A stretch of DNA of 64,000 nucleotides, from assembly GCF_007845675.1 (NCBI RefSeq), contig NZ_VOBR01000003.1:310001-374000 (forward strand), read 5' to 3'. The number at the start of each line of letters is the position of its first letter. The first letter of the stretch is position 1. Shown here one piece after another: positions 21,431 to 52,264 of the stretch. Source of the DNA: Lentzea tibetensis. Its GTDB lineage: Bacteria > Actinomycetota > Actinomycetes > Mycobacteriales > Pseudonocardiaceae. The notes under the pieces are model-generated. The model had not been told where the DNA came from. It worked only from the letters and a program-made list of their open reading frames with translations, and made no database searches. A program made the position numbers and the translations under genes.

Positions 21431-21444
21431 TTACCGGCCAGTAC
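21431..21444. promoter_or_regulatory. Putative operator upstream of meaA
   Basis: TTACCGGCCAGTAC is nearly identical to TTACCGGCCAGTAA upstream of ccr (50674) and similar to sites before the 3-hydroxyacyl-CoA dehydrogenase (40316) and the thiolase (52251). The form TTAC-N6-GTAA is an inverted repeat, as expected for a TetR-type dimer. It lies 31 bases before the preferred meaA start. Confidence 0.6.
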
Positions 21445-21474
21445 GCTTCGAGGAACCGATTTGTGGAGGTTGCC

Positions 21475-23469
21475 GTGCCCTACCCGGCTGACCGAGAGCG
21501 CGACCGCCCCTGGGTGATGCGCACTTACGCGGGTCACTCTTCGGCGACGGCGTCCAACGCGCTGTACCGGCGGAACCTCGCCAAGGGGCAGACGGGCCTG
21601 TCGGTCGCGTTCGACCTGCCGACGCAGACCGGATACGACCCGGACGACGAGCTCGCCAAGGGCGAGGTCGGCAAGGTCGGTGTGCCGATCAGCCACATCG
21701 GTGACATGCGCCAGCTGTTCGACCAGATCCCGCTGGACGACGCGAACACGTCGATGACGATCAACGCGACGGCCATGTGGCTGCTGGCGCTGTACGTGTC
21801 GGTGGCCGAGGAGCAGGGCGCGGACGTCTCCGCTCTGGCGGGCACGACGCAGAACGACATCATCAAGGAGTACCTGTCCCGCGGCACCTACGTGTTCCCG
21901 CCGGGACCGTCGCTGCGGCTGATCACGGACATGGTCGCGTGGACCGTGTCGAACGTGCCGAAGTGGAACCCGATCAACATCTGCAGCTACCACCTGCAGG
22001 AGGTCGGCGCGACCCCGGCGCAGGAGATCGCGTACGCGATGTGCACGGCGATCGCGGTGCTCGACTCGGTCCGCGACTCCGGCCAGGTGCCGCAGGACCG
22101 CTTCGGCGAGGTCGTCCAGCGCATCTCCTTCTTCGTGAACGCGGGCGTGCGGTTCGTCGAGGAGATGTGCAAGATGCGCGCGTTCACGCGCCTCTGGGAC
22201 GAGATCACCCTGGAGCGCTACGGCATCCAGGACGTCAAGCAGCGGCGCTTCCGCTACGGCGTGCAGGTCAACTCGCTCGGCCTGACCGAGGCGCAGCCGG
22301 AGAACAACGTCCAGCGCATCGTGCTGGAGATGCTCGCGGTGTCGCTCTCGCGCGACGCCCGTGCCCGCGCGATCCAGTTGCCCGCGTGGAACGAGGCGCT
22401 CGGCCTGCCGCGCCCGTGGGACCAGCAGTGGGCGCTGCGCATGCAGCAGGTGCTCGCCTACGAGACGGACCTGCTGGAGTACGAGGACATCTTCGCGGGC
22501 TCCGTCGTCATCGAGTCCAAAGTGGACGACATCATCCGCGGCGCGCGCGAGGAGATCGACCGCGTGCAGGCGATGGGCGGCGCGGTCGCGGCCGTCGAGT
22601 CCGGCTACATGAAGTCCGCGCTGGTGTCGTCGTTGGCGGACCGTCGTCGTCGCGTCGAGTCCGGCGAGGACATCATCGTCGGCGTCAACAAGTTCGACAC
22701 GACCGAGCCGTCGCCGCTGCAGGCCGAGGGCGCGAGCGCGATCGAGACCATCGACCCGATCGTCGAGCTGCACGCCGTCGAGGCCATCCAGCAGTGGCGT
22801 GCCACGCGTGACTCCTCAGCGGTCGAGGTCGCGCTGGACTCCTTGCGCGCCGCCGCGAAGACCGATGCGAACCTGGTCGACGTGACCCTGGCCTGTGCAC
22901 GCGCCGGCGTGACGACCGGCGAGTGGGCTTCCGCCCTGCGCGAGACGTTCGGTGAATACCGCGCGCCCACCGGTGTCTCGGCCGCTTCCGCCTCGGGCGA
23001 GGCGGGTACGGAGATCGCTCGGGTGCGCGATCGGGTGCGGTCGACGGGCGAGGAGATCGGCGAGCGGCTGCGGATGCTCGTCGGCAAGCCCGGTCTCGAC
23101 GGCCACTCCAACGGCGCCGAGCAGGTCGCCGTCCGGGCGCGCGACGTCGGTTTCGAGGTGGTGTACCAGGGGATCCGGCTCACGCCGGCGCAGATCGTCG
23201 CCGCCGCCGTGCAGGAGGACGTGCACGTCGTCGGGCTGTCGATCCTGTCCGGGTCGCACCTGGAGGTCGTGCCCGCCGTCGTGGACGGGCTGCGTGCCGC
23301 CGGTGCCGGCGACATCCCCGTGATCGTGGGCGGGATCATTCCGCCTGACGACGCCGCCAAGCTGCGGGAGCGCGGGGTGGCTCGGGTGTTCACGCCCAAG
23401 GACTACGAGCTCACGCAGATCATGGACGAGATCGTCACCGTGATCCGCGAGGTGCACGAGCTCAGCTGA
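21475..23469 (+). CDS. meaA: Ethylmalonyl-CoA mutase-type B12 mutase (MeaA)
   Basis: This 664-residue protein has the mutase barrel first and the cobalamin-binding domain last. The N-terminal RTYAGHSSATASNALYRRN and FDLPTQTGYDPD are characteristic of MeaA/Ecm rather than methylmalonyl-CoA mutase. The B12 site is LDGHSNGAEQ (DxHxxG) near residue 542, followed by GLSILSGSHLE and VGGIIP. It isomerises ethylmalonyl-CoA to methylsuccinyl-CoA in the ethylmalonyl-CoA pathway. I place the start at GTG 21475, six bases after GGAGG. An upstream TTG at 21427 would put the operator inside the gene. Partners in the window include ccr, the epimerase and meaB. Confidence 0.92.
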   Translation: MPYPADRERDRPWVMRTYAGHSSATASNALYRRNLAKGQTGLSVAFDLPTQTGYDPDDELAKGEVGKVGVPISHIGDMRQLFDQIPLDDANTSMTINATAMWLLALYVSVAEEQGADVSALAGTTQNDIIKEYLSRGTYVFPPGPSLRLITDMVAWTVSNVPKWNPINICSYHLQEVGATPAQEIAYAMCTAIAVLDSVRDSGQVPQDRFGEVVQRISFFVNAGVRFVEEMCKMRAFTRLWDEITLERYGIQDVKQRRFRYGVQVNSLGLTEAQPENNVQRIVLEMLAVSLSRDARARAIQLPAWNEALGLPRPWDQQWALRMQQVLAYETDLLEYEDIFAGSVVIESKVDDIIRGAREEIDRVQAMGGAVAAVESGYMKSALVSSLADRRRRVESGEDIIVGVNKFDTTEPSPLQAEGASAIETIDPIVELHAVEAIQQWRATRDSSAVEVALDSLRAAAKTDANLVDVTLACARAGVTTGEWASALRETFGEYRAPTGVSAASASGEAGTEIARVRDRVRSTGEEIGERLRMLVGKPGLDGHSNGAEQVAVRARDVGFEVVYQGIRLTPAQIVAAAVQEDVHVVGLSILSGSHLEVVPAVVDGLRAAGAGDIPVIVGGIIPPDDAAKLRERGVARVFTPKDYELTQIMDEIVTVIREVHELS

Positions 23470-23497
23470 CGCCTGCGGGCCAGGCGCGCAACCTCAG

Positions 23498-23588
23498 CTC
23501 AGCCGCGCGCTCAGCCTCATCAACTAGGCCGTCGCAGGCGCGCGCACTCTGCTCAGCCGAACTCAGCCGCGCGAACTCAGCTCAGCCG
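23498..23588. repeat. CTCAGCCG short repeats after meaA
   Basis: Four copies of CTCAGCCG (23498, 23552, 23562 and 23581) plus partial copies (CTCAGC, GCTCAGCC) occur in 91 bases between the meaA stop and its terminator. The stretch has no open frame with coding character. Confidence 0.6.
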
Positions 23589-23625
23589 AACAAGGGGTCC
23601 CCCGCGAAGGGGGTCCCCTTGTTTT
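23589..23625 (+). terminator. Terminator after meaA
   Basis: AACAAGGGGTCCCCC pairs with GGGGGTCCCCTTGTT around GCGAA (one T-T mismatch), followed by TT and then CATT. This is a 14-bp stem with a T-rich tail, closing the meaA unit. GGGGG/CCCCC hairpins recur near 35720, 36494 and 53600. Confidence 0.75.
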
Positions 23626-23701
23626 CATTCTCCCGCAGAGGTCTGACAATTCCGGGGCGCGGAGGGTCAGTTGTCCACAGGTCGCGGCGTCAACGGCCCG
23701 T

Positions 23702-24220
23702 TCACCCCAGCAGTTCCTTGGTGTTCACGATCTCCGCGAACCCGCCACCCCGCAGGTTCGCCACCGTGGCCGCGGTCAGCTGCTCGGCGGTCAGGTCCTC
23801 GAGGTCGAACGTGAACGTCGCGTCGATGGCGACCTTGACCCGGTACCCGAGGTTGCCGCCGACCCGAGCGGTGGTCTCGACGCACATGTTGGTCTGAATC
23901 CCGGCGAGCACGATGTCCTCGATCCCCCGCGCCCGCAGCCACCGGTCGAGGTCCACCTCCCCGTGGAAAGCGGAGTTCACCTTCTTCGCGAACACCAGAT
24001 CCGGCGAGGCAACAGCGAGCTCGGGCTTGAACCGGTTGCCGGACTGCCCAGGCCGCAGCGGCGAGTCCGGGTGGACCGAGTCGTGCCGCACCAGCACGAC
24101 CGGCCCGGTCCACGCGTCCAGCAGCGCCGCGATGTTGGCCTCGGCGCCGGGGTTGTTGCGCCTGCCCCAGTAAGCGTCGTCGAAGCCGCGCTGCACGTCG
24201 ATCACGATGAGAGCTGTCAT
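23702..24220 (-). CDS. Isochorismatase-family cysteine hydrolase
   Basis: The 172-residue protein from ATG 24220 begins MTALIVIDVQRGFDDAYWG, with the catalytic Asp in the first strand. It has VFAKKVNSAFHG (catalytic Lys) and VLAGIQTNMCVETTARVG (nucleophilic Cys). This is the full catalytic triad of the family. Substrates in the family include isochorismate, nicotinamide and N-carbamoyl compounds; I cannot choose. It is divergent from a GlxA-type AraC regulator (71-bp gap), which probably controls it. Confidence 0.9.
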   Translation of the reverse strand: MTALIVIDVQRGFDDAYWGRRNNPGAEANIAALLDAWTGPVVLVRHDSVHPDSPLRPGQSGNRFKPELAVASPDLVFAKKVNSAFHGEVDLDRWLRARGIEDIVLAGIQTNMCVETTARVGGNLGYRVKVAIDATFTFDLEDLTAEQLTAATVANLRGGGFAEIVNTKELLG

Positions 24221-24291
24221 GCGGACAACTCTGATCCAACCGAAGAAACACAAACAGTGGCAAGAGCTGCGCGATCCGGTACTTTCCTGCC

Positions 24292-25242
24292 ATGCGCACA
24301 GTGGGGATCCTGGTCCTGCCGGGCAGTCGCGTGTTCGACATCTCGGTGGCGAGCGAGGTGTGGGGCATCGACCGCTCGGACTCGGGCGTGCCCCGGTTCG
24401 AGCTCCGGATCTGCTCGCCGGCGAAGGTCACCCAGCCGCTCACGCCCATCGGCCTGATGCCGGCCACGCACGGACTGCAGGGCCTCGCCGGCTGCGACCT
24501 GGTCATCGTGCCCGGCAACGGCACACCGCACGCGGCGGTGTCGCCCCAGGTGATCCGCGCGCTCCGCAGCACGACCGCCACCGTCGCCGGCCTCTGCTCG
24601 GGCACGTTCACGCTCGCCGCGGCGGGCCTGCTCGACGGCCGGGAAGCAACGACGCACTGGCGGCTGCTCGACGACCTGCAGCAGGTGGCGCCAAGAGCGA
24701 AGGTGCGTAGAGACGTGCTGTTCACGCACGACGGGCCGGTGCTCACGTCGGCGGGCGTGCTCGGCGGCGCGGACCTGTGCCTGCACCTCGTCCGGCAGGC
24801 GCACGGCGCGGAGGTCGCCGCCGCCATCGCCAGGAGAATGGTCATGTCGCCCGCGCGCGAAGGCGGGCAGCGGCAGTACGTCGAACCCCCGATGCCGAGC
24901 AGGAAGAAGTCCGGCGTTTCGTCCACAGTGGACTGGGCGGTCGCGCGGCTGGCCGAGCCGATCGGCGTCAACGACCTCGCCGAGCACTCCGGGCTGAGCG
25001 AGCGGACGTTCCACCGCACGTTCCTCGCCGCCACCGGCAGCACACCGGGCCGCTGGCTCCAGTCGCAACGGGTCCGCCTGGCGCAGCGCCTGCTCGAGAC
25101 CACGGACCTGCCGGTCGAACGCGTCGCGGAACGGTCCGGCCTCGGCACGTCGGCGAACCTGCGGCGCCGTCTGCGCGCGGAGCTCGGGGTCTCGCCCGAC
25201 GGCTACCGGCGCACTTTCCGCGTACCTTCCAACCATGGTTGA
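24292..25242 (+). CDS. GlxA-family AraC regulator (DJ-1/PfpI + HTH), copy 1
   Basis: This 316-residue protein has an N-terminal DJ-1/PfpI-like domain (VGILVLPGSRVFDISVASEVWG; the elbow region reads VAGLCSGTFTLAAAGLLDGREATTHW, with Cys present). A C-terminal AraC double helix-turn-helix follows (VNDLAEHSGLSERTFHRTFLAATGSTPGRWLQSQR pattern and RRRLRAELGVSPDGYRRTF). These regulators sense small metabolites by unknown means. It is divergent from the isochorismatase-like hydrolase. Its stop overlaps the start of the enoyl-CoA hydratase gene by eight bases, so both genes are likely one transcript. Confidence 0.92.
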   Translation: MRTVGILVLPGSRVFDISVASEVWGIDRSDSGVPRFELRICSPAKVTQPLTPIGLMPATHGLQGLAGCDLVIVPGNGTPHAAVSPQVIRALRSTTATVAGLCSGTFTLAAAGLLDGREATTHWRLLDDLQQVAPRAKVRRDVLFTHDGPVLTSAGVLGGADLCLHLVRQAHGAEVAAAIARRMVMSPAREGGQRQYVEPPMPSRKKSGVSSTVDWAVARLAEPIGVNDLAEHSGLSERTFHRTFLAATGSTPGRWLQSQRVRLAQRLLETTDLPVERVAERSGLGTSANLRRRLRAELGVSPDGYRRTFRVPSNHG

Positions 25243-25993
25243 CGTACAGCGGGACGGCGACACCGTCCGGATCACCATGAACCGCGCGGCGAAGCGCAAC
25301 GCACTGTCCGCCGAGCACCTCGGCGAGCTGCTGACGGCGTTCCGCGAGGCGGGCGAGTCCGACGCGAGCGGCATCGTGTTCGGCGCCGAGGGGCCGGTCT
25401 TCTCGGCGGGCCACGACTTCGGCGACGTCGCCGGACGTGACCTCCACGGTGTGCGCGAGATGCTGGAGCTCTGCACCACCCTGATGCGCACCATCCAGGA
25501 GGTGCCGCAGGTCGTCATCGCCCGCGTGCACGCACTGGCGACGGCCGCGGGCTGTCAGCTGGTCGCGTCGTGCGACCTCGCGATCGCGGCCGACTCGGCC
25601 GGTTTCGCGCTGCCCGGCGGCAAGGGCGGCTGGTTCTGCCACACGCCCGCCGTGCCGGTCGCCCGCAACGTCGGCCGCAAGCGGCTGATGGAGATGGTCC
25701 TGACCGGCGACGTCGTCGACGCGCACACGGCCGTCGAGTGGGGGCTGATCAACCGGGCCGTGCCGCTGGACGACCTCGACGCCGCGGTGGACGACCTGCT
25801 GATGCGGGCGACCCGCGGCAGCCGCGCGTCGAAGGCGCTCGGCAAGCGCACCGTCTACGCCCAGCTCGACCGGCCGGAGGCCGACGCCTACGAGATCGCG
25901 CTCGAGGTCATGGCGTCGGCGTCGCAGACCACGGCCGGCAAGGAGTGGATGGCGTCGTTCCTGGACAAGCGCAAGCCCGTCTGGACCGACTAG
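25235..25993 (+). CDS. Enoyl-CoA hydratase/isomerase family protein
   Basis: This 252-residue crotonase-fold protein starts at ATG 25235 inside the end of the upstream regulator gene. Motifs are RITMNRAAKRNALS, FSAGHDFGDVAG (CoA-binding, oxyanion loop), VHALATAAGCQLVASCDLAIAADSAGF and a C-terminal helix with MASFLDKRKPVW. At the oxyanion and catalytic positions of classical hydratases I do not see both glutamates clearly, so hydratase, isomerase or another crotonase activity is possible. It is coupled to a GlxA-type regulator. Convergent with the next gene, with a four-base overlap. Confidence 0.88.
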   Translation: MVDVQRDGDTVRITMNRAAKRNALSAEHLGELLTAFREAGESDASGIVFGAEGPVFSAGHDFGDVAGRDLHGVREMLELCTTLMRTIQEVPQVVIARVHALATAAGCQLVASCDLAIAADSAGFALPGGKGGWFCHTPAVPVARNVGRKRLMEMVLTGDVVDAHTAVEWGLINRAVPLDDLDAAVDDLLMRATRGSRASKALGKRTVYAQLDRPEADAYEIALEVMASASQTTAGKEWMASFLDKRKPVWTD

Positions 25994-26388
25994 GCCCCGG
26001 TGGTCGAGCCGGGCCGGATGATCATCAACACCGTGACGGTCGCCCACAGCACGTTGAACAGGCCCGTGTGCATCGCCAGCCGCTTCGTCGCCTCGCCGGC
26101 GAGCGCACGGGCCTGGCCGGGGAGGACCAGCAGCGCCAGCACGAACGTCGCGACCGCGGTCAGCGCGATCGACACGATCACCCACGGCTCACCGGTCACG
26201 CCCATCACGCCCGCGGTGGCGAACCCGAACACCGGCACCGCGATGCCGACCGCCGCGTAGACGCGGCAGATCCGGTGCAGCACGGGCCGGTTCTCGGTGG
26301 CACGGGGGAACATGCTCGCCGCGACCGTCACCGGCCCGATGGCCACGATCGCGGCCAGCACGTGCAGCGACAGCAGCAGCTTGGTCAC
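25990..26388 (-). CDS. Four-helix membrane protein (DUF2269-like)
   Basis: The GTG at 26388 overlaps the stop of the upstream DJ-1-like gene (GTGA), giving 132 residues. Four transmembrane segments are visible (about residues 4-24, 43-65, 70-93 and 108-126). The LLLSLHVLAAIVAIGPVTVA opening and a His in the fourth segment (AMHTGLFNVLW) recall DUF2269-type small membrane proteins. Function is unknown. Translational coupling to the DJ-1-like protein suggests a joint role. Confidence 0.75.
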   Translation of the reverse strand: MTKLLLSLHVLAAIVAIGPVTVAASMFPRATENRPVLHRICRVYAAVGIAVPVFGFATAGVMGVTGEPWVIVSIALTAVATFVLALLVLPGQARALAGEATKRLAMHTGLFNVLWATVTVLMIIRPGSTTGA

Positions 26389-26975: not shown

Positions 26976-27083
26976 CCGTTCCTCCCTCGATGTCGGTGAT
27001 CACGACGCTAGGAGTCGCCGGGCGCGAGGAGAATTGGCTGGATTGCCATGTTGCAACGGATTCTCGCCAGCTACCGTGGCGGC

Positions 27084-28022: not shown

Positions 28023-28050
28023 CCGAAATCGCCCGGCTAGAGTCGCGGCC

Positions 28051-29031: not shown

Positions 29032-29034
29032 CGG

Positions 29035-32582: not shown

Positions 32583-32593
32583 GGGAGGCCGTC

Positions 32594-34008: not shown

Positions 34009-34073
34009 CGGGGGCTGACGCCCGGCGCCGCGAGGCGTTACTGTCAGGTTACTCGCGAGTACCTGGAGGGCCG

Positions 34074-35585
34074 ATGACGCAGACCGCTCCCGATGCCACG
34101 TTGTCCACTGGCACGTCGGATGCTGGGCGGCTGTTCGCCTCCACCGACCCGCGGACGGGTGAGGTCGTGGCGCAGCACCCCGTGCACACCGAGGCCGAGG
34201 TGCAGGACGCGGTCGCGTCGGCACGTCCGGCGGCGGAGTGGTGGGCGGGCCTCGGCTTCGAAGGTCGCAAGTCACGCCTCGACGCGTGGCGCAAGGTGCT
34301 GGTGGGCAAGCTGGACGAGTTCGGCGCGCTGATCAGCGCCGAGACCGGCAAGCCCGCCGACGACGCCCGCACCGAGCTGGCGCTGGTGATCGACCACCTG
34401 CACTGGGCGGCCAGGCAGGCGGGCCGCGTGCTGGGTCGCAGGCGCGTGTCGCCGGGCTTGCTCATGTACAACCACGCGGCGTCCATCGAGTACCGCCCGC
34501 TCGGCGTGATCGGCGTGATCGGGCCGTGGAACTACCCGGCGTTCACGCCGATGGGTTCCGTCGCGTACGCGCTCGCCGCCGGCAATGCCGTGGTGTTCAA
34601 GCCTTCCGAGTACACACCGGGCGTCGGCACGTTCCTCGCGTCGACGTTCGCCGAGGTCGTGCCGGAGCACCCGGTGTTCCAGGTGGTGACCGGCTTCGGC
34701 GAGACCGGTGCGGCGCTGTGCCGCGCGGGCGTCGACAAGCTGGCGTTCACCGGCTCGACCGCGACCGGCAAGCGCGTCATGGCCGCGTGCGCCGAGACGC
34801 TGACCCCCGTGCTGGTCGAGTGCGGCGGCAAGGACGCGCTGATCGTCGACTCCGACGCCGATCTGTCCGCCGCGGCCGACGCCGCCGTGTGGGGCGGCGT
34901 GTTCAACGCGGGCCAGACGTGCGCGGGCGTCGAGCGCGTGTACGTGGCCGAGGACGTCTTCGACGAGTTCGTGTCGCTGGTGACCAAGCGCGTCAAGAAG
35001 CTGAAGCCGGGCGGCGAGCCGGGTGCGGACCTGGGCCCCATCACGATGCCCAAGCAGGTCGACGTGATCCGCTCGCACGTGGCGGACGCGCTGGAGCGCG
35101 GCGGCAATGCCGTCGTCGGCGGCGCCGAGTCGATCCGCCCGCCGTTCGTCGAGCCGGTCGTGCTGATCGACGTGCCGGAGGACTCGCTGGCGGTCACCGA
35201 GGAGACCTTCGGCCCCACCCTGGTGATCAACCGCGTACCGGACGCCGTCGAGGGTGTGCGCCGCGCCAACGCAGGCCGCTACGGCCTCGGTGGCGCCGTG
35301 TTCTCCCGCTCGCGCGGCGACGAGCTGGCCCGTCAGATGCGGTGCGGCATGGTGTCGGTCAACGCCGTGCTGGCGTTCGCCGCGGTACCGGCTTTGCCGT
35401 TCGGCGGTGTCGGTGACTCCGGGTTCGGGCGGATCCACGGGGAGGACGGGCTGCGCGAGTTCGCGACGCCGCAGTCCTTGACGCGCAAGCGGTTCTCCGC
35501 GCTGCTCAACCCGATGACCTACGACCGCAGTTCGCGCACCGTGAAGCACGTGCTGCGGCTGGTGCGCGTGCTGTACGGCCGCTGA
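34074..35585 (+). CDS. NAD(P)-dependent aldehyde dehydrogenase
   Basis: The ATG at 34074 is preceded by TGGAGGG and gives 503 residues. Family motifs are IGPWNYPAFTPMGSVAYALAAGNAVVFKPSE in pattern (cofactor site), AFTGSTATGKRVM, the general base Glu in VECGGKDALIV and the catalytic Cys in FNAGQTCAGVERVYV, with LPFGGVGDSGFGR near the end. It oxidises an aldehyde to the acid. The family resembles the succinate-semialdehyde/long-chain type, but the substrate is not fixed by sequence. No linked alcohol dehydrogenase is present. Confidence 0.94.
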   Translation: MTQTAPDATLSTGTSDAGRLFASTDPRTGEVVAQHPVHTEAEVQDAVASARPAAEWWAGLGFEGRKSRLDAWRKVLVGKLDEFGALISAETGKPADDARTELALVIDHLHWAARQAGRVLGRRRVSPGLLMYNHAASIEYRPLGVIGVIGPWNYPAFTPMGSVAYALAAGNAVVFKPSEYTPGVGTFLASTFAEVVPEHPVFQVVTGFGETGAALCRAGVDKLAFTGSTATGKRVMAACAETLTPVLVECGGKDALIVDSDADLSAAADAAVWGGVFNAGQTCAGVERVYVAEDVFDEFVSLVTKRVKKLKPGGEPGADLGPITMPKQVDVIRSHVADALERGGNAVVGGAESIRPPFVEPVVLIDVPEDSLAVTEETFGPTLVINRVPDAVEGVRRANAGRYGLGGAVFSRSRGDELARQMRCGMVSVNAVLAFAAVPALPFGGVGDSGFGRIHGEDGLREFATPQSLTRKRFSALLNPMTYDRSSRTVKHVLRLVRVLYGR

Positions 35586-40315: not shown

Positions 40316-40329
40316 TTACCGATAGGTAG
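40316..40329. promoter_or_regulatory. Putative operator upstream of 3-hydroxyacyl-CoA dehydrogenase
   Basis: TTACCGATAGGTAG fits the NTAC-N6-GTAN pattern shared with the sites before meaA, ccr and the thiolase gene. It lies 27 bases before the start codon. Confidence 0.4.
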
Positions 40330-40356: not shown

Positions 40357-42132
40357 GTGGCGCGCGAATTCAACACCGTCGGGGTGGTTGGTCTCGGGAC
40401 GATGGGTGCGGGCATCGCCGAGGTACTCGCGCGCACCGGGCTGACCGTGAAGGTGGTCGACATCGACGACGCGGGTCTCGCCCGCGGTCTCGGGCACCTC
40501 CAGCACTCGACGGAGCGCGCCGTCGCCCGCGGCAAGCTCGACGCCGCCGCGAAGGCCGAGCTGCTGGGCCGGATCAGCACCAGCACGTCAATCGCCGACC
40601 TCGCCGACTGCGACCTCGTCATCGAGGCCATTCCCGAGCACGTCGAGCTCAAGTCGCGCCTGTTCGCCGAGATCGACAAGATCCTCGGCCCGGACGCGAT
40701 CCTCGCATCGAACACGTCGTCGCTGTCGATCACCGAGATCGGCGTCCACACCGGACGCCCCGGCAAGGTCGTCGGCCTGCACTTCTTCAACCCGACGCAG
40801 GTGCTCAAGCTCGTCGAGGTCGTCCGCACGGTCGTCACCGAGCCGGACGTGATCACCGACGTCGTGGCGTTCGTCGAGCGGCTCGGCAAGTCGCCCGTCG
40901 TGATCGGCGACCGCGCGGGCTTCATCGCGAACGCCCTGCTCTTCCCGTATCTCAACCACGCGGTGAAGATGCTCGAGGCGCGCTACGCCACGCGCGAGGA
41001 CCTGGACGCCGCCATGCGCTACGGCTGCGGCTACCCGATGGGCCCGCTCGCGCTGCTCGACCTGATCGGGCTGGACACCGCGTACGAGATCCTCGACACG
41101 ATGTACCACCAGTCCCGCAACCGCCTGCACGCTCCGGCGCCGCTGCTCAAGCAGATGATCACCGCCGGTCTGCTCGGCAGGAAGACCGGCCGCGGCTTCT
41201 ACACCTACGACGGCCCGGACTCGCCGAACGTCGTCGCGGACACCCAGACCCCGGTCTCGTCCGAGGAGGGTGTGCAGGCCCGCGACGTGCAGCGGGTCGG
41301 CGTGATCGGCACCGGCACCATGGCGACCGGCATCGTCGAGGTGTTCGCGAAGCGGGGCTACGACGTCGTCCTGCGCGCCCGCAGCCTGGAGAAGGCCGAG
41401 GGCGCGCTGGCGAAGGTCCGCAAGTCGCTGGACCGCGCGGTGTCGAAGGGCAAGCTCTCCGAGGCCGACCGCGACGCGACGCTGGCGCGCATCAGCCCGG
41501 CCGTCGAGTTCGTCGAGCTCGCCGACTGCGACCTCGTCGTCGAGGCCGTCGCCGAGGAGCTGGCGATCAAGAAGGAGGTCTTCGCGGCGCTCGACGAGGT
41601 GTGCAAGCCCGGTGCCGTGCTCGCGACGACGACGTCCTCGCTGCCGGTCATCGAGTGCGCCGCTGCGACGTCGCGCCCCGGTGACGTGGTCGGCCTGCAC
41701 TTCTTCAACCCGGCGCAGGTGATGAAGCTCGTCGAGATCGTCGAGACCATCTCCACCGGCGCCGACGTCGTCGCGACCGCCCGCAAGATCTGCCTCGACC
41801 TCGGCAAGGTGCCGGTGCACTGCGGCGACGTCGCCGGGTTCATCGTGAACGCGCTGCTCTTCCCGTACCTCAACGACGCGGTGAAGATGCTGGAGGCGCA
41901 CTACGCCGAGGCCGACGACATCGACAACGCCATGAAGGTCGGCTGCGGCCTGCCGATGGGCCCGTTCGAGCTGCTGGACGTCGTGGGCCTGGACGTGTCG
42001 CTGGCGATCGAGCGGACGCTGTACCTGGAGTTCCGCGAGCCCGGCTTCTCGCCGGCGCCGCTGCTGGAGCACCTCGTGACGGCGGGCCGCCTCGGCAGGA
42101 AGACCGGCAAGGGTTTCCGCGACTACTCGTGA
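40357..42132 (+). CDS. 3-hydroxyacyl-CoA dehydrogenase, internally duplicated
   Basis: This 591-residue protein is a tandem of two full 3HCDH units (about residues 6-290 and 310-591). Each begins with a Rossmann motif (VGVVGLGTMGAGIAEV; VGVIGTGTMATGIVEV) and has VVGLHFFNP with the catalytic His, then a C-terminal domain ending GLLGRKTGRGFYTY or RLGRKTGKGFRDY. The halves differ at many positions, so it is an old duplication. The enzyme interconverts 3-hydroxyacyl- and 3-ketoacyl-CoA; with the thiolase and Ccr it could supply the C4 intermediates of the ethylmalonyl-CoA pathway. GGAGG precedes the GTG start by six bases. Confidence 0.93.
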   Translation: MAREFNTVGVVGLGTMGAGIAEVLARTGLTVKVVDIDDAGLARGLGHLQHSTERAVARGKLDAAAKAELLGRISTSTSIADLADCDLVIEAIPEHVELKSRLFAEIDKILGPDAILASNTSSLSITEIGVHTGRPGKVVGLHFFNPTQVLKLVEVVRTVVTEPDVITDVVAFVERLGKSPVVIGDRAGFIANALLFPYLNHAVKMLEARYATREDLDAAMRYGCGYPMGPLALLDLIGLDTAYEILDTMYHQSRNRLHAPAPLLKQMITAGLLGRKTGRGFYTYDGPDSPNVVADTQTPVSSEEGVQARDVQRVGVIGTGTMATGIVEVFAKRGYDVVLRARSLEKAEGALAKVRKSLDRAVSKGKLSEADRDATLARISPAVEFVELADCDLVVEAVAEELAIKKEVFAALDEVCKPGAVLATTTSSLPVIECAAATSRPGDVVGLHFFNPAQVMKLVEIVETISTGADVVATARKICLDLGKVPVHCGDVAGFIVNALLFPYLNDAVKMLEAHYAEADDIDNAMKVGCGLPMGPFELLDVVGLDVSLAIERTLYLEFREPGFSPAPLLEHLVTAGRLGRKTGKGFRDYS

Positions 42133-45846: not shown

Positions 45847-46100
45847 GCTGCGTGAGCGCACGTGTGGCGCGGTGGCCGACAGGTGCCGTGGCTGCTGCGT
45901 CGGCGCGCATGGTGCGGTGGCCGCGGATGTGGCTGTGACGGTGGCCGTAGCGGTGGCCGACAGTGCCGTGGTCGCCCTGTTCGCGCGCGTGGCGCGGTCG
46001 TCGGCCGGTGCTGTGGGGGCTGCGTGAGCGCACGTGTGGCGCGGTGGCCGACAGGTGCCGTGGCTGCTGCGTCGGCGCGCATGGTGCGGTGGCCGCGGAT
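45847..46100. repeat. 82-bp exact direct repeat, two copies
   Basis: Positions 45847-45928 and 46019-46100 appear identical, beginning GCTGCGTGAGCGCACG and ending GGTGGCCGCGGAT. The copies are 172 bp apart. Flanking sequence (TCGCGCGC.TGGCGCGGTCGTCGGCCGGTG split) is also duplicated with an indel of about 10 bp, so the true unit is about 120-170 bp. Confidence 0.85.
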
Positions 46101-46246
46101 ATGGCCGTGGCGGTGGCCAACAGGCCTCGCGGCTGGCGTGTTCGTGCGCGTGGCGGCGGATGTGGCGCTGCGGGTGTGGTGCTTGGCGTGTGGTGTGGCT
46201 GGGCGTGGGCGGGTTGGGTGGTGTCCGGGGTGCTTAGCATGGCGCG

Positions 46247-46981: not shown

Positions 46982-47486
46982 ACGCCTCCTGGCGGCGGTA
47001 CACGGTGTCCGTGCCCAACTCGGTTTCGTGCGCACCGGTGCGCACGAAACCCAGCTTCTCAGCCACGCGCTGAGCAGGCTTGTTGAGCGGCTGCGTCACG
47101 ATCACCACCGGCCGGTCAGGGTGATCGCGCGAAGCCCGCTCGAGAGCCGCCCGGCCCATCTCCGGTGCGTAGCCCCTGCCCCAGGCGGCGGGGGAGAACC
47201 GGTAGAACAGGTTGAGCGTCTCCTCGCCCATCAGCTCGTGGATGCGCAGACCACCGAACCCGATCACCTCGCCGGTCTCGGCCAGCTCGATCGCCCAGTA
47301 GCTGACGCCGTCCGTCTGCCAGCTCCTGATCCATGTCTCGAGATAACCGGCGACCGTCGCCGCGTTCGGGGTACCCGCCGGGTTGAAGCGGTTCGTCTCG
47401 GGGTCGGCCATGATCCGGATGACGGCATCCAGATCGGTGGTCGAAACCGGTCTGAGCAGCAACCTTTCGGTGCGGGTTGTGGTCAT
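46971..47486 (-). CDS. GNAT-family N-acetyltransferase (RimJ-like)
   Basis: From ATG 47486 the 171-residue protein reads TERLLLRPVSTTDLDAVIRIM, IGFGGLRIHEL, LFYRFSPAAWGRGYAPEMGRAALE (acetyl-CoA pyrophosphate loop) and VVIVTQPLNKPAQRVAEKLGFVRTG. This is the RimJ/RimL-type subgroup that acetylates amino groups of proteins or small molecules. The acceptor is unknown. It is divergent from the next hydrolase with a 51-bp gap. Confidence 0.92.
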   Translation of the reverse strand: MTTTRTERLLLRPVSTTDLDAVIRIMADPETNRFNPAGTPNAATVAGYLETWIRSWQTDGVSYWAIELAETGEVIGFGGLRIHELMGEETLNLFYRFSPAAWGRGYAPEMGRAALERASRDHPDRPVVIVTQPLNKPAQRVAEKLGFVRTGAHETELGTDTVYRRQEAFSR

Positions 47487-47537
47487 GGGGTCACGGTACG
47501 ACGTGGGTCTGACAATTTCGCGGCAGTATTCACCGGC

Positions 47538-48221
47538 ATGGACCTGGTTCTGCTCCACGCGTTTCCCGTCGACTCCCGGATGTGGCCTGCCGAGCTCGGC
47601 GCCATCACCCCTGACCAGCGCGGACGAGATCGCGAACCCGACCTCGAGCTCATCGCGCGAGACGTGCTGGCCGATCTCGACGCGCGCGGGATCGAGCGGT
47701 TCGCGCTCGGCGGGTGCTCGATGGGCGGCTACGTCGCCATGGCGGTCCTGCGCATCGCGCCCGAACGCGTCGCACGCCTCGTGCTCGTCGACACGAAGGC
47801 GACCGCGGACACCGACGAGGCCAGGGCCAACCGCCTGACCATGGCGAAGAGGGTCGAAGAAGAAGGCACCGCGTGGCTGCCCGACGCGCTGCTGCCGAAC
47901 CTGCTCGGCCCGGACGCGTCGAACGGGGCCGGGGAGCTGGTCACGCGGATGATCGTGGAACAGCCCGCGCACGAGGTCGCGTGGGCTCAGCGCGCGATGG
48001 CCAGCCGCCCGGACTCGTCCGAGCTGCTCGCGAGGACCACGATCCCCGCGCTGGTGATCGTGGGGGAGCGCGACCAGCTCACGCCGCCGTCACTGGCCGC
48101 CGAGATGGCTGACCTGCTGCCGAACAGCACGTACGTCGAGATCCCCGGCGCCGGGCACCTCGTGCCGGTGGAAGCTCCCCGGACGTTCGCGAGCGCCGTC
48201 AGGCAGTGGTGTTCTGAGTGA
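47538..48221 (+). CDS. Alpha/beta fold hydrolase (short form)
   Basis: The 227-residue protein from ATG 47538 begins MDLVLLHAFPVDSRMWPAEL. It has the nucleophile elbow LGGCSMGGYVAMAVL (Ser), an acidic residue in VIVGERDQLTPP and the catalytic His in IPGAGHLVPVEAP. The segment between strand 4 and helix A is unusually short (ITPDQRGRDREPDLEL). It resembles 3-oxoadipate enol-lactonase/BioH-like esterases. The substrate is unknown. It overlaps the convergent coiled-coil gene by 23 bases. Confidence 0.9.
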   Translation: MDLVLLHAFPVDSRMWPAELGAITPDQRGRDREPDLELIARDVLADLDARGIERFALGGCSMGGYVAMAVLRIAPERVARLVLVDTKATADTDEARANRLTMAKRVEEEGTAWLPDALLPNLLGPDASNGAGELVTRMIVEQPAHEVAWAQRAMASRPDSSELLARTTIPALVIVGERDQLTPPSLAAEMADLLPNSTYVEIPGAGHLVPVEAPRTFASAVRQWCSE

Positions 48222-49278
48222 CCGGCTTCGCGACCTTGTCCGTGGGGCCTTCGACGGAACCGGGGTGAGCCGACTCCTTCTCCGCGTCCAGCGGGTCGAG
48301 CAGCGGCACGACGTCCTGCAACGCGCTCCGCACGCCGTGCAGCTGGTGCGACAGCCGGTTGCGCAGGTTGCGCAGCTGGTCGACCCGCTGCGTCGCCTGC
48401 GTGGTGCGCCGGTTCGCCTCGTCGGTGGCCTCGCGGACGAGGCGGTTCGCCGTGTCCGTCGCCTCCTGGACGCGCGCGGTCGCCTCGGTGATCGAGTCGT
48501 GCCTGCGCTTGTTGGCCTCTTCGGTCGCCTCGCGGACGCGCTGCTCGGCCTCGGCCTTCGACGTGGCCTGCTCCTGGGTGACGGCGGCACGGATGCGCGC
48601 GGCCTCCTCGGTCGCCTCGCGCAGCCTGCGCTCACCATCGGCCTTGGACGAGGCCTCCTGCGACGCCAGCGTGCTCATCGCCTCGGCGCGACGGGCCGCC
48701 ATCGCGATCTCGAAGTCCTCCTCGACGGTGATCCGCCGCTGCTCGGACTCCTCGGCGATCTTGCGCGCGCCCGACTCGGCGTCGCCGGTGATCTTCTCCG
48801 CCTCGGTGCGCGCCGTCTCCAGCACGTTGCGGTGCTCCGCCTCCATGGCGGTGCGGCGCTCGTCGAGCTCGGCGATCAGCTTCTCGTAGCGCTGCCGCAG
48901 CACGCTCGCGTCCGCCTCGGCCTTGGCGCGGATGTGCCCGCCCTCGGCCTCGGCGCGCGCCTTGATCTCGTTCGCCTCGTCCTGCGCGAGGCGCAGCATG
49001 CGCTGGAGGCGCTCGGAGAGCCCCTCCAGCGTCGTCGGCGGCAACGAGAGCCGCTCGACCTGGCCGCGCATCTCGGACATGTCCGAGCGCGCGGCCTCCA
49101 GCTGCCTGGTGAGGTCGTTGGTCTGGGACACCGCGGCATCGCGATCCGCGGCGAGGAGCCGCAGGTCGGAGTCGAGGCGTTCGAGGTGATCCTCGACCTG
49201 GGCGCGGTCGTAACCGCGCTTGACGATGTCGAAGCCGGATCCCAGTGGGACGAGGTCACGGTCGTCGGCGAGGCCCAT
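48199..49278 (-). CDS. DivIVA/Scy-like long coiled-coil protein
   Basis: The protein (359 aa from ATG 49278; GTG 49287 is possible) begins with a DivIVA-like N-terminus (PLGSGFDIVKRGYDRAQVEDHLERLDSDL in pattern). An almost unbroken coiled coil follows to about residue 320, rich in Ala, Glu, Arg with repeated REATEEA blocks, and then a short Pro/Thr tail. DivIVA and Scy-type proteins organise polar growth or septation in actinobacteria; shorter paralogues act in the cell envelope. A structural role at the membrane or pole is inferred. Confidence 0.82.
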   Translation of the reverse strand: MGLADDRDLVPLGSGFDIVKRGYDRAQVEDHLERLDSDLRLLAADRDAAVSQTNDLTRQLEAARSDMSEMRGQVERLSLPPTTLEGLSERLQRMLRLAQDEANEIKARAEAEGGHIRAKAEADASVLRQRYEKLIAELDERRTAMEAEHRNVLETARTEAEKITGDAESGARKIAEESEQRRITVEEDFEIAMAARRAEAMSTLASQEASSKADGERRLREATEEAARIRAAVTQEQATSKAEAEQRVREATEEANKRRHDSITEATARVQEATDTANRLVREATDEANRRTTQATQRVDQLRNLRNRLSHQLHGVRSALQDVVPLLDPLDAEKESAHPGSVEGPTDKVAKPVTQNTTA

Positions 49279-49314
49279 GACCCTCACGCTACCCGTTCCG
49301 GGAGGAAGGGAACG

Positions 49315-50628
49315 TCACACACCCCGGAAACGGTTGATAGCAGTGAGATGCGTCGCGCGCAGCTCGTGGTTCCGCACGCCGAGACCCTCCTGCGGCGCAA
49401 GGGTGAGCACGCCGACCTTGCCCTGGTGCGCGTTGCGGTGCACGTCGTGCGCGGCCTGCCCGGTTTCGTCCATTGAGTACACCTTGGACACTGTGGGGTG
49501 GATCTTTCCCTTGGCGATCAAGCGGTTCGCCTCCCACGCCTCGCGGTAGTTCGCGAAGTGCGAGCTGATGATGCTCTTGAGGTTCATCCACAGGTAGCGG
49601 TTGTCGTACTGGTGCATGTACCCCGACGTCGAGGCGCACGTGACGATCTTGCCGCCCTTGCGCGCGACGAACACGCTGGCGCCGAACGTCTCCCGGCCGG
49701 GGTGCTCGAACACGATGTCCGGGTCCTCACCGCCGGTCAGCTCGCGGATCTTGGCGCCGAACCGCTTCCACTCCTTGGGGTCCTGGTTGTTCTCGTCCTT
49801 CCAGAACTTGTACCCCTCGGCCGAACGGTCGATGATCAGCTCCGCGCCCATGCTGCGGACGATCTCCGCCTTCTCCGGCGAGGACACGACGCACACCGGC
49901 GTCGCGCCGCCGTTCAGCGCGAACTGCGTTGCGTACGAACCGAGTCCGCCGGACGCGCCCCAGATCAGGACCGTGTCGCCCTGCTTCATGTTGGCGCCGT
50001 TGGTCGAGACGAGCTGCCGGTAGGCGGTGGAGTTCACCAGGCCGGGCGACGCCGCTTCCTCCCACGTGAGGTGCTCGGGCATCGGCATCAGCTGGTTCGA
50101 CTTGACCAGCGCGACCTCGGCGAGGCCGCCGAAGTTCGTCTCGAAGCCCCAGATCCGCTGCGACGGGTCGAGCATCGTGTCGTTGTGGCCGTCCGGGGCC
50201 TCCAGCGGCACGTCCAGGCAGTGCGCGACGACCCGGTCGCCGGGCTTCCACGCGGTCACGCCCGGACCGGTGCGCAGCACGACGCCCGCCAGGTCGGAGC
50301 CGACGACGTGGTACGGCAGGTCGTGCTTGCCGCCGAGGCGCTTGAGGAAGCTGAACGTCGAGAGCGGCTCGAAGATCGAGGTCCAGACGGTGTTGTAGTT
50401 GATGGCGCTGGCCATCACGGCGACGAGTGCTTCACCGGGACCGAGCTCGGGCGTCGCGACCTCGTCGAGGTGCAGCGACTTGCGCGGATCCTTGTCCCTG
50501 GTCGCGAGGCCGTCGAACATCTCGGCCTCGTCCTTGTGCACGGTCACGCCCCGATAGCTCTCGGGTACGTCCAGGTGTGCGATCGCGTCGAGCTCATCAG
50601 CCAGGATCGCGTCAAGGATCTTCTGCAC
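49315..50628 (-). CDS. ccr: Crotonyl-CoA carboxylase/reductase
   Basis: This 437-residue MDR-family enzyme reductively carboxylates crotonyl-CoA to ethylmalonyl-CoA. Family-specific features are the long N-terminus (VPESYRGVTVHKDEAEMFDG), MASAINYNTVWTSIFEPLSTF, IWGFETNFGGLAEVALV, GDTVLIWGASGGLGSYATQFA (NADPH site) and IISSHFANYREAWEANRL. These contain the Asn, Phe-Glu and His residues known to hold CO2 in characterised homologues. The GTG at 50628 lies eight bases after AAGGAA. A TTACCGGCCAGTAA site lies 46 bases upstream. It feeds MeaA (21475). Confidence 0.96.
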   Translation of the reverse strand: MQKILDAILADELDAIAHLDVPESYRGVTVHKDEAEMFDGLATRDKDPRKSLHLDEVATPELGPGEALVAVMASAINYNTVWTSIFEPLSTFSFLKRLGGKHDLPYHVVGSDLAGVVLRTGPGVTAWKPGDRVVAHCLDVPLEAPDGHNDTMLDPSQRIWGFETNFGGLAEVALVKSNQLMPMPEHLTWEEAASPGLVNSTAYRQLVSTNGANMKQGDTVLIWGASGGLGSYATQFALNGGATPVCVVSSPEKAEIVRSMGAELIIDRSAEGYKFWKDENNQDPKEWKRFGAKIRELTGGEDPDIVFEHPGRETFGASVFVARKGGKIVTCASTSGYMHQYDNRYLWMNLKSIISSHFANYREAWEANRLIAKGKIHPTVSKVYSMDETGQAAHDVHRNAHQGKVGVLTLAPQEGLGVRNHELRATHLTAINRFRGV

Positions 50629-50673
50629 GGCGGCATTCCTTCCCAAGCTGGGATTGTCGCAGGTTGCCGGAGG

Positions 50674-50687
50674 TTACCGGCCAGTAA
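50674..50687. promoter_or_regulatory. Putative operator upstream of ccr
   Basis: TTACCGGCCAGTAA is an inverted repeat (TTAC-N6-GTAA), matching 13 of 14 bases of the site before meaA at 21431. A related half, GGTTGCCGG, precedes it. Confidence 0.6.
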
Positions 50688-50787
50688 ACGATCCAGAGGG
50701 CACCTTGTGAGGGATTCCACTTCTTGACCGGGCGGCCAATCAAGCGCACCATCGAATTGTCCGATTTGCAGGACGGAGGTACGGATC

Positions 50788-51150
50788 ATGACCAAGGCGT
50801 GGACCAGGTGGCAGGACTGGGCCGAGGTGGGCCTCGGGGTGCTGGTGCTGCTCGCTCCGCTGGTGGTGGACACGACGAACCCGGCGATGTGGACGATGAT
50901 CGTGCTCGGCGCGCTGATCGCCATCGACGGCCTGTTGTCGCTGGCCATGCCGGCGATGGTGTACGGCGAGTACGTCCAGCTGGTGCTGGGCGCCGCGCTG
51001 TTCATCTCACCGTGGGTGATGGGTTTCTCCGACATGACCGCCGCGTCGTGGGCGTGCTGGATCGGTGGTGTCCTCACCATCGCCGCGGGCGCTCTCGCGA
51101 TGCCCGCCGCGAACGCCGCCCATTCAGGGCTGGCGGCCGGATCTCACTGA
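50788..51150 (+). CDS. SPW-repeat membrane protein
   Basis: This 120-residue protein has four transmembrane helices in two similar halves: WAEVGLGVLVLLAPLV and YVQLVLGAALFISPWVMGF. Each carries the SPW-type (here AP-L / SPWVMGF) motif at the end of its first helix. The family is a small bacterial membrane protein of unknown function. It lies 56 bp upstream of the TetR gene on the same strand and may be co-regulated through the palindromes between them. Confidence 0.87.
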   Translation: MTKAWTRWQDWAEVGLGVLVLLAPLVVDTTNPAMWTMIVLGALIAIDGLLSLAMPAMVYGEYVQLVLGAALFISPWVMGFSDMTAASWACWIGGVLTIAAGALAMPAANAAHSGLAAGSH

Positions 51151-51157
51151 ATGCTGT

Positions 51158-51185
51158 GTGGGCCCACTGCGGTGTGGGCCCACAC
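51158..51185. promoter_or_regulatory. Two tandem palindromes upstream of TetR gene
   Basis: GTGGGCCCAC (51158-51167) and GTGTGGGCCCACAC (51172-51185) are perfect palindromes with centres 16 bp apart, close to one and a half helical turns. They end 21 bases before the regulator start. This is typical of an autoregulatory TetR operator pair. Confidence 0.6.
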
Positions 51186-51206
51186 ACCCCTGGCTAGGAG
51201 GAACCG

Positions 51207-51782
51207 GTGGACGATTCGGCCAGGGAGCGGATCCTCACCGCGGCCGAGGAGCTGTTCGCCGAGTCCGGGTTCGACGCCACGCCGACCTCGCGCATCGCCG
51301 AACGCGCGGGCGTGCCGAAGGGGCTCGTCCACTACTACTTCCGCCGCAAGCCCGACCTGCTCGCCGCGCTCGTCCAGCGGTTGCCGGACGGCACCGTCGA
51401 CCAGAAGCGGGTCGTGGTCGTCGGCGACATCGCGGAGAGCCTGCGCAGGCTGGTCGCCGCGCTCGACGCGCGCCTGAACGCCTCGCCGCTGCTCTCACAC
51501 CTGCTGTGGCGCGAGGCGGACACGCACAGCGCCGTCAAAGCCGCGCTGCACGACCGCTACCGCGCGGTCGCGGCGCAGATCCGGAACGTCATCCTCGCCG
51601 CGGGCGGCGCCGCCGTCGCCACGAAGGACGTCGACAGCGCGGCCGCGCTCGTGGCGCTCGCCGTCAGCTACCGGCACTCCGTCGCCCGGCTCGCCGAGGA
51701 CGACGACCGGATGGACCAGGAGCTCGAGTTCGTCGCGGACGCGCTCAGTGCGCGGCCGCGGCAGGCTCCACCAGTTCGATGA
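51207..51782 (+). CDS. TetR-family transcriptional regulator
   Basis: The GTG at 51207 follows AGGAGGA and gives 191 residues. The N-terminal domain is classic: ERILTAAEELFAESGFDATPTSRIAERAGVPKGLVHYYFRRKPDLL in pattern (helix-turn-helix). The C-terminal ligand domain has SPLLSHLLWREADTHSAVKAAL and is divergent. The inducer is unknown. It sits between the SPW protein and the convergent epimerase gene, which it overlaps by 38 bases. It is a neighbour of ccr, but its own palindromes differ from the NTAC-N6-GTAN sites, so it is not the obvious regulator of those. Confidence 0.92.
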   Translation: MDDSARERILTAAEELFAESGFDATPTSRIAERAGVPKGLVHYYFRRKPDLLAALVQRLPDGTVDQKRVVVVGDIAESLRRLVAALDARLNASPLLSHLLWREADTHSAVKAALHDRYRAVAAQIRNVILAAGGAAVATKDVDSAAALVALAVSYRHSVARLAEDDDRMDQELEFVADALSARPRQAPPVR

Positions 51783-52194
51783 GCACGCCGCCCGCGTCCT
51801 TCGGGTGCACGAAGTTCACCCGGCTGTTGGACGTGCCTCGCTTGGCCTGGTCGTACAGCAGCCGCAGGCCCTTGTTCCTCAGCGCGTCGGCGGCAGCGTC
51901 CACATCGGACACGCGGTAGGCGAGCTGCTGCAGTCCCGGCCCCGAGCGGCTGATGAACTTCGCGATCGTCGAGTCGGCGTTCAACGGCGCCAGCAGCTGG
52001 ATCATCGTGCTGCCGTGGGCTGAGCCGGGTGCGCGCAGCATGGCCTCGCGGACGCCCTGCTCCTCGTTCGTCTCCTCGTGCGCGACCTCGAGCCCGAAGT
52101 TGTCGCGGTAGAAGGCGATCGCCTCGTCCAGGTCGGGCACGGCGATGCCGACGTGGTCGATCCCGGTCACGAACCGGCGGAGTTCAGCGTCCAT
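51745..52194 (-). CDS. Methylmalonyl-CoA (ethylmalonyl-CoA) epimerase
   Basis: This 149-residue vicinal-oxygen-chelate protein begins with IDHVGIAVPDLDEAIAFYRDNFGLEVAHEE, the signature of methylmalonyl-CoA epimerases, with metal-binding His in IDHVGIA and a later Glu (LIELVEP). QQLAYRVSDVDAA and KDAGGVLIELVE complete the paired beta-alpha-beta modules. It converts (R)- and (S)- forms of methylmalonyl-CoA; homologues in the ethylmalonyl-CoA pathway also act on ethylmalonyl-CoA. It is divergent from the thiolase (123 bp) and overlaps the TetR gene. The matching M. tuberculosis gene lies next to fadA4. Confidence 0.93.
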   Translation of the reverse strand: MDAELRRFVTGIDHVGIAVPDLDEAIAFYRDNFGLEVAHEETNEEQGVREAMLRAPGSAHGSTMIQLLAPLNADSTIAKFISRSGPGLQQLAYRVSDVDAAADALRNKGLRLLYDQAKRGTSNSRVNFVHPKDAGGVLIELVEPAAAAH

Positions 52195-52250
52195 GCGGGG
52201 CAGCGTAGTTCCCTGATCGGTGCAGTGCCCTTGTGCGGGGTCTCACAGCC

Positions 52251-52264
52251 GTACCCGAAAGTAA
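52251..52264. promoter_or_regulatory. Putative operator upstream of thiolase
   Basis: GTACCCGAAAGTAA fits NTAC-N6-GTAA and agrees with the ccr site at 10 of 14 positions. It lies 53 bases before the thiolase start, in the space shared with the divergent epimerase gene. Confidence 0.35.

Follow-up and report, generated by a model that had tools for sequence, protein, structure and literature searches.

The genome of Lentzea tibetensis (9.36 Mb) carries, in a stretch of 64,000 bases analysed here as a whole (the window, C33:310001-374000), short inverted repeats of the form NTACY-N4-RGTAN just before genes of the ethylmalonyl-CoA (EMC) pathway. We propose that these repeats are operators of an acyl-CoA-responsive TetR regulator which joins fatty-acid beta-oxidation to the EMC pathway, with a FasR-like TetR as their likeliest reader; going by sequence comparison, we give this reading a probability of about one half. 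The window was compared across 25 genomes of the same genus, L. tibetensis itself included, and with up to 16 genomes from other families of the same order. For one of the TetR proteins of this genome, the best matches in named organisms come mostly from Lentzea species, with an identity of 91-95%. NTACY-N4-RGTAN served as the strict operator pattern and NTAC-N6-GTAN as a looser frame. Gene starts and names come from a GC-frame open reading frame (ORF) caller and from family searches, some starts being set by eye.

The original prediction had named four such 14-mers, before meaA, a 3-hydroxyacyl-CoA dehydrogenase gene (hbd), ccr and a thiolase gene. All four are present letter for letter at 21431, 40316, 50674 and 52251, the first and third agree at 13 of 14 positions, and the claimed spacing of 27-53 bp is reproduced with the likeliest starts chosen by eye (hbd 27, meaA 30, ccr 45 and thiolase 53 bp). 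A fifth site, absent from that list, precedes an aldehyde dehydrogenase gene by 11 bp. The sites and their genes are:

21431..21444, + strand, predicted operator TTACCGGCCAGTAC before meaA (ethylmalonyl-CoA mutase), conserved in 25/25 same-genus and 5/9 other-family genomes
21475..23469, + strand, meaA-like coenzyme-B12 mutase gene, TIGR00641 and TIGR00640 above cut-off, start by eye (ORF caller start 21463)
34049..34062, + strand, putative fifth operator TTACTCGCGAGTAC before aldehyde dehydrogenase
34074..35585, + strand, aldehyde dehydrogenase, succinic-semialdehyde-dehydrogenase-like, PF00171, best NCBIfam model NF006916 below cut-off
40316..40329, + strand, predicted operator TTACCGATAGGTAG before 3-hydroxyacyl-CoA dehydrogenase, 25/25 same-genus and 2/10 other-family genomes (one more uncertain)
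40357..42132, + strand, hbd, 3-hydroxyacyl-CoA (3-hydroxybutyryl-CoA) dehydrogenase, two-domain, 591 aa, NF005875, NF004474 and NF006124 above cut-off
49315..50628, - strand, ccr, crotonyl-CoA carboxylase/reductase, TIGR01751 with 604.9 bits against a cut-off of 378.55, GTG start 50628 or TTG 50646
50674..50687, + strand, predicted operator TTACCGGCCAGTAA (TTACTGGCCGGTAA in ccr direction), 25/25 same-genus and 8/11 other-family genomes
52251..52264, + strand, predicted operator GTACCCGAAAGTAA between a methylmalonyl-CoA epimerase gene and the thiolase gene, 25/25 same-genus and 1/6 other-family genomes
52318..53505, + strand, acetyl-CoA C-acetyltransferase (thiolase), TIGR01930 with 436.4 bits against a cut-off of 240.55

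The curated matches of the meaA-like gene are to mutase domains, the name meaA having been assigned by the original prediction and by us; its orthologues in the genus are 91-93% identical. The core TACYNNNNRGTA occurs five times in the 64,000 bases, every copy just upstream of a gene, and in 100 dinucleotide-preserving shuffles of the window its mean count was 0.12 and its maximum 1, none reaching 5. Genome-wide, the 13-mer TTACCGGCCAGTA is found only at meaA and ccr.

Enrichment is also seen beyond the window. With the pattern read backwards as the control, TTACYNNNNRGTAA has 10 exact matches in the genome as compared with 1, and TTACYNNNNRGTAB, in which one outer base is varied, has 41 as compared with 11. 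In each of the 25 same-genus genomes TTACYNNNNRGTAR gives 44-59 matches (exact palindromes counting twice) against 2-15 in the control. Among the other-family genomes the motif exceeds the control in 15 of 16, only slightly so in G027, G030, G035 and G037, and G034 shows no enrichment (15 versus 24).

L. tibetensis itself has 51 distinct sites, 21 of which, by our own count, stand before genes of beta-oxidation, electron-transfer flavoprotein (ETF), the EMC pathway or acyl-CoA ligation. These genes are fadAB and a 611-aa fadE5-like gene, each with two sites; the gene of an etfD-like iron-sulphur protein; etfBA and mcl; another six acyl-CoA dehydrogenase genes or operons; two enoyl-CoA hydratase genes (one 256 bp off); a thiolase gene and an AMP-binding ligase gene; and ccr, meaA, hbd and thiolase. 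The gene taken as mcl, which the original prediction had raised as a possible carrier of the motif, encodes a citrate-lyase-type HpcH/HpaI lyase by family search. The names fadE5-like, etfD-like and fadE25-like, as well as the FdmR-like neighbourhood discussed below, are partly presumed by analogy with mycobacterial proteins; fadE5 was assigned from size and N-terminus, the family itself resting on a PF12806 match. The count rises to 27 of 51 when two GDSL lipase genes, an alpha/beta hydrolase gene, a DUF4442 gene, the aldehyde dehydrogenase gene of the window and the FasR-like gene are added. Palindromes lie just upstream of the GDSL lipase/esterase genes at L176:4260-5114 and 16847-17632, and would fit an extracellular release of fatty acids within the same regulon. 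For 22 lipid-related operators the distance to the start codon was tabulated, with a range of 4-100 bp and a median of 29 bp; kept apart from this table are the hydratase site of L159 (256 bp), that of L145, which overlaps the called start, the FasR-like/hydrolase site of L154 and the sites of the two GDSL genes.

Within the genus, the site is found at ccr, hbd, meaA (24 loci and G023) and thiolase in 25 of 25 genomes each and always satisfies the strict pattern; the thiolase operator begins with TTAC in 24 of the 25 and with GTAC in the present genome. Over the 25 genomes conservation of the ccr site amounts to 1.00 in the arms, 0.74 in the core and 0.94 in the flanks; the arms of the repeat are fixed and its core is free to vary, as is typical of TetR operators. 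The thiolase core stands at 0.85, and the cores of meaA and hbd (0.94 and 0.93) are conserved like their flanks and are little informative. Because the flanking intergenic DNA is itself 91-94% conserved in the genus, the comparison within the genus is weak alone and presence in other families is the stronger evidence. Under the strict pattern the ccr site is present in 8 of 11 other-family genomes (G025, G026, G028, G030, G033, G036, G039, G040) and was not found in G029, G037 and G038, and the meaA site is present in five of nine (G028, G030, G036, G039, G040). The 31 other-family loci (129,774 bases) hold 14 occurrences of NTACY-N4-RGTAN, 10 of them distinct, and each of the 14 precedes the FasR-like gene or one of ccr, meaA, hbd and thiolase. 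The per-gene tallies leave aside meaA of G037 and, in G027, G031, G032, G034 and G035, the promoters of all four genes; two sites which fit the looser pattern only, at ccr of G029 (CTACGCGCCGGTAG) and at thiolase of G038 (GTACAGTTCGGTAC), stand outside the counts, and the hbd site of G036, where the match begins at residue 66, remains among the 10 hbd genomes as an uncertain case. On the other-family counts, ccr and meaA are old members of the regulon, and hbd and thiolase mostly a feature of the genus. That the palindromes are chance matches or non-regulatory features might be argued from the roughly half of the genome-wide sites that are without an obvious common function; it is contradicted by the enrichment over both shuffles and the reversed pattern and by the conservation at the same promoters across families, and we regard it as extremely improbable.

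Eight same-genus genomes (L491-L498) have two copies of ccr, with 84-87% identity between them. No site was found within 350 bp upstream of the second copy in seven of the eight, the exception being G001 with CTACCTTGAGGTAC at -20; because of these seven paralogues, the operator tracks the ccr of the pathway and not every ccr. The second ccr probably serves another pathway, perhaps the supply of polyketide extender units.

The beta-oxidation sites recur in other families as well. In G039, eight of nine distinct sites precede fadA, fadE25-like, etfD-like, fadE5-like (twice), etfB, meaA and ccr, the names being given partly by eye. G000, G026, G039 and G032 all have double sites at fadE5-like genes and also fadA sites, and in G039 and G032 there are sites at etfB and at the etfD-like gene as well (several names by eye); for G032, 15 of the 18 listed sites were examined, with genes named by eye except the fadE5-like one (family search). 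The two palindromes of the fadE5-like genes lie 22-25 bp apart in four families, which suggests two dimers side by side:

L174, fadE5-like double site at 5708 and 5732
L462, fadE5-like double site at 4034 and 4056
L470, fadE5-like double site at 2032 and 2055
L473, fadE5-like double site at 2018 and 2043

Since the sites also cover much of the machinery of fatty-acid beta-oxidation, they would represent a beta-oxidation regulon including the EMC genes, and not the regulon of acetate assimilation alone that had been put forward. The type of regulator named in the original prediction fares better. Constrained arms, conservation across families and palindromes at TetR promoters all favour the operator of a dimeric TetR-like regulator, and the motif, whose absence before orthologous meaA and ccr of relatives had been named as an argument against the idea, precedes both genes in all 25 same-genus genomes. 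The genes are less dispersed than the original prediction implied, a stretch of about 17 kb holding ccr, hbd, meaA and thiolase in G026 and in G039.

Four TetR genes of the genome have palindromes in or near their promoters, namely the FasR-like, the FdmR-like, the C55 and a SACE_7040-family gene. The first three are:

L154:804-1436 (contig C18 near 98906-99442), FasR-like TetR gene, best NCBIfam family FasR
C44:266019 (L173:4020-4664), FdmR-like TetR, adjoining an SCP2-acyl-CoA dehydrogenase pair
L248, C55 TetR, third SKPxLY type, divergent from a flavin-monooxygenase-like gene, site L248:3244-3257, CTACT-N4-RGTAG in 19/19 loci

The best candidate reader is most likely the FasR-like TetR. FasR is by far its best NCBIfam family, and its helix-turn-helix is near-identical to that of Mycobacterium tuberculosis FasR, GYHAA.MDEIA.RAGVSKPVLYQHF being common with PDB 6o6p (6o6p and 6o6n are the FasR entries). 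We call the protein FasR-like and not FasR because this helix-turn-helix is common to both but the full curated score is missed. Its promoter contains CTACYAGCGAGTAA in 25/25 same-genus genomes. Among the matches listed, to which all statements on the distribution of TetRs refer, it occurs in 15 of 16 other-family genomes; no close FasR-like match was listed for G034. The motif-enriched genomes G026, G032, G039 and G040 possess, of the FasR-like, FdmR-like and C55 types, only the FasR-like one, and G025 has in addition one distant FdmR-like relative (30%, C1:1071689). The core of the site TTACTCGCCAGTAG in G026 matches AAC-TCGCCA-GTA of the FasR crystal DNA at 11 of 12 positions.

In Lentzea, the FdmR-like TetR might instead have taken over or come to share these operators as a lineage-specific repressor of fatty-acid degradation, an explanation that we consider possible and rather doubtful. 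The gene is divergent from the SCP2-acyl-CoA dehydrogenase pair and adjoins a MaoC gene and a thiolase gene, in an order which resembles what we take to be that of htdX-fabG4-fadA2 near Rv0238; a nearby frame (L173:6112-6660) had no Pfam match. FdmR (Rv0238) has been reported as a repressor of fatty-acid degradation that responds to long-chain acyl-CoA and regulates fadE5 (PMC12403877, PMC9262360; all papers are cited for the excerpts available), and sites before fadE5 and other beta-oxidation genes are indeed found here. At the FdmR-like promoter stand two palindromes with a spacing of 16 bp in 25/25 same-genus genomes, two also in G036 and in G038, and three in G028. Of 80 named loci, kept from 327 and with no Mycobacterium among them, 77 carry at least two TAC-N6-GTA and three carry one, and the strict TACY-N4-RGTA is present at least once in only 55. 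The distribution of the protein, however, does not follow that of the operators: close orthologues (54-59%) outside the genus are listed only for G028, G036 and G038 (G031 44%), whereas ccr operators are present in G025, G026, G030, G033, G039 and G040, whose best FdmR-like matches amount to 28-34%. The tandem palindromes (L173:3937-3966; L338-L417) keep their spacing of about 16 bp from Lentzea to Micromonospora, where one inner base per repeat breaks the Y/R rule (TTACTCTGGCGTAA, TTACGCACGAGTAG).

Several paralogous TetRs of one recognition type could also read the same operator code, resulting in overlapping regulons and not in one. The palindromes at the three TetR promoters differ slightly, as such a division would have it: CTACYAGCGAGTAA at the FasR-like gene (25/25), a tandem of the CTACT type at the FdmR-like gene (25/25) and CTACT-N4-RGTAG at the C55 gene (19/19). 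Sites at fadE5-like, fadA, etfB and ccr genes nevertheless recur in G026, G032 and G039 (ccr of G032 outside the tally), for which only the FasR-like type is listed. We think this arrangement unlikely. The C55 TetR, which we consider only as one reader among several, is found almost only within the genus in the matches listed for the other TetR queries.

A number of observations weigh against the FasR-like TetR and a single regulon. Several Lentzea TetR paralogues have a common SKPxLY recognition segment together with TAC-N6-GTA at their own promoters, and because of this the reader could be another TetR, or several; the distribution given above covers the relatives of three TetR queries, and the C55 TetR was not among these. 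The FasR-like protein reaches 280.8 bits with the curated FasR equivalog NF053731, below the cut-off of 330. Its gene is present in G027, G030, G035 and G037, yet the motif is little enriched there, and its own promoter site was seen in three of eight other-family genomes examined (G036, G028, G026). Outside the genus, hbd and thiolase sites are rare, and no strict meaA site was found in G025, G026, G029 and G033. The remaining 24 of the 51 sites have no evident link to lipids or no called gene; they include sites at pyruvate kinase, luciferase-like, glycosyltransferase and porin genes, and some lie inside genes. A part of the 24 must have arisen by chance or serve other TetRs. For G026, a link to lipids is seen at only about 7 of its 22 sites (by eye). 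Finally, M. tuberculosis FasR activates fas-acpS, which is opposite in direction and pathway to our proposal (PMC7382501, PMC7652896). As to pyruvate kinase, the palindrome lies 140 bp upstream of the gene in two genomes (L150:1501 and, with the gene named by eye, L432:1501), which might connect the use of fat with glycolysis.

The original prediction recognised no published regulator for the motif; a precedent for the half-site TAC-N6-GTA does exist (PMC3388012, PMC7382501). FasR was crystallised on its native binding sequence 5'-TACCCGTACGTAGAACTCGCCAGTA-3', which holds TAC-CCGTAC-GTA and AAC-TCGCCA-GTA, and its binding to DNA is disrupted by long-chain acyl-CoA (PMC7382501). The mycobacterial palindrome TAC-N6-GTA is present three times upstream of each of Rv2524c (fas) and Rv3229c and twice upstream of Rv3230c (PMC3388012), and we infer that the three copies before fas are the three inverted repeats which FasR binds at the fas promoter (PMC7382501, PMC7652896). 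Half-sites, spacing and a place before fatty-acid genes are the same as in our sites, the mycobacterial ones standing in clusters of two to three, whereas the excerpts of PMC3388012 assign no regulator to the motif and name no EMC genes beside Rv3229c, Rv3230c and Rv2524c. FasR (Rv3208) thus has in common with the proposed reader the TetR type, the near-identical helix-turn-helix, the TAC-N6-GTA DNA and lipid genes as targets; it differs in its three inverted repeats, the sites here being mostly single or double, at a median distance of 29 bp to the start codon, and before catabolic genes. Tentatively, the FasR-like TetR might be an ancient catabolic regulator in the order which couples beta-oxidation to the EMC pathway, the activator role of mycobacterial FasR being a derived re-use of the operator code.

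FdmR (Rv0238; also of M. marinum) is likewise a TetR repressor of fatty-acid degradation with fadE5 among a similar set of targets, and a TetR with a partly similar neighbourhood is present here; EMC genes are not named as its targets in the excerpts of PMC12403877 and PMC9262360. AccR of Streptomyces avermitilis, also of the TetR family, represses short-chain acyl-CoA genes and has a 16-nt palindrome whose spacing is the same, but its motif is GTTAA-N6-TTAAC and not of the TTAC-N6-GTAA type, and its targets are accD1A1-hmgL-fadE4, echA8, echA9 and fadE2 (PMC10933834); our sites, which read NTAC-N6-GTAN, do not match that motif. CcrR of Methylobacterium extorquens, compared by its title alone as cited in PMC4606968, is a TetR-family regulator of an EMC gene, though an activator and from an alphaproteobacterium. 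The excerpts of the open-access literature that were searched name no regulator or operator for the EMC pathway (ccr, meaA) of actinomycetes.

Further genes of the window lie between ccr and thiolase:

50788..51150, + strand, small membrane-protein-like gene, divergent, in a common intergenic region with ccr, without NCBIfam match
51207..51782, + strand, TetR-family gene adjoining ccr, weak matches to several TetR models
51745..52194, - strand, methylmalonyl-CoA epimerase, divergent from thiolase across the fourth operator, TIGR03081 with 139.8 bits against a cut-off of 114.95

The fourth operator is 56 bp from the epimerase start. The TetR at 51207-51782 neighbours ccr, epimerase and thiolase and lies on the downstream side of the divergent ccr operator, and could on these grounds be taken for a local regulator of the EMC genes. 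Against this, its recognition segment, VPKGLVHYY, is not of the SKPxLY type, the same sites also precede far-off beta-oxidation genes, and in 7 of 25 same-genus genomes, all of which keep the operator, no tblastn match to it was obtained within 1.5 kb of ccr. It is probably not the reader, and as an account of the sites such a local regulator is very improbable. The small gene and the TetR gene stand between ccr and epimerase in most same-genus genomes; the TetR gene is beside ccr in 18 of the 25 and in seven both are missing there, as if a unit had been inserted or lost. In G026, an aldehyde-dehydrogenase-like gene (by eye) has CTACTGGACGGTAA just upstream (L456 site 11280).

Two other TetRs were rejected as readers. 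The SACE_7040-family TetR (L176; 295.9 bits against a cut-off of 250) has a palindrome upstream in 17 of 25 same-genus genomes (at 115-121 bp in 15 and 228 bp in two) and in none of five other-family loci, and we read the site as that of the divergent GDSL esterase. Immediately before the start codon of the TetR gene (L188-L212), the conserved sequence GGTAAACG-N-CTGCTAACC, which resembles the AccR motif GTTAA-N6-TTAAC, has the look of a distinct autoregulatory operator. A TetR beside a desaturase-like gene (L268), presumably MadR-like, has no palindrome by the gene in L268. It is unlikely to be the reader, given that mycobacterial MadR, also an acyl-CoA-responsive TetR, has the different consensus TCTGTG-N7-GT (PMC8872791).

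In the proposed mechanism a TetR dimer, most likely the FasR-like protein, would read NTAC-Y-N4-R-GTAN just before the start codon of fadE5-like, fadAB, etfBA, etfD-like and several acyl-CoA dehydrogenase genes and of ccr, meaA and mcl, in Lentzea also of hbd and thiolase. Operators so near the start codon are usual for a repressor rather than an activator. Repression is most likely because the operators lie within 4-100 bp of the start codon, and would be exerted by covering promoter or early-transcript DNA. Long-chain acyl-CoA may release the repressor, since FasR and FdmR both respond to it. The production of acetyl-CoA from fat and its assimilation would thereby be switched on together.

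The EMC pathway feeds carbon from acetate and fat into growth, and its intermediates are common with polyketide extender units. If the proposal holds, one operator code from fadE5 to ccr would constitute a single switch for the burning of fat and the assimilation of acetyl-CoA. The three TetR genes provide a short list of candidates for its reader, and the finding bears on the roles of FasR-type regulators outside mycobacteria.

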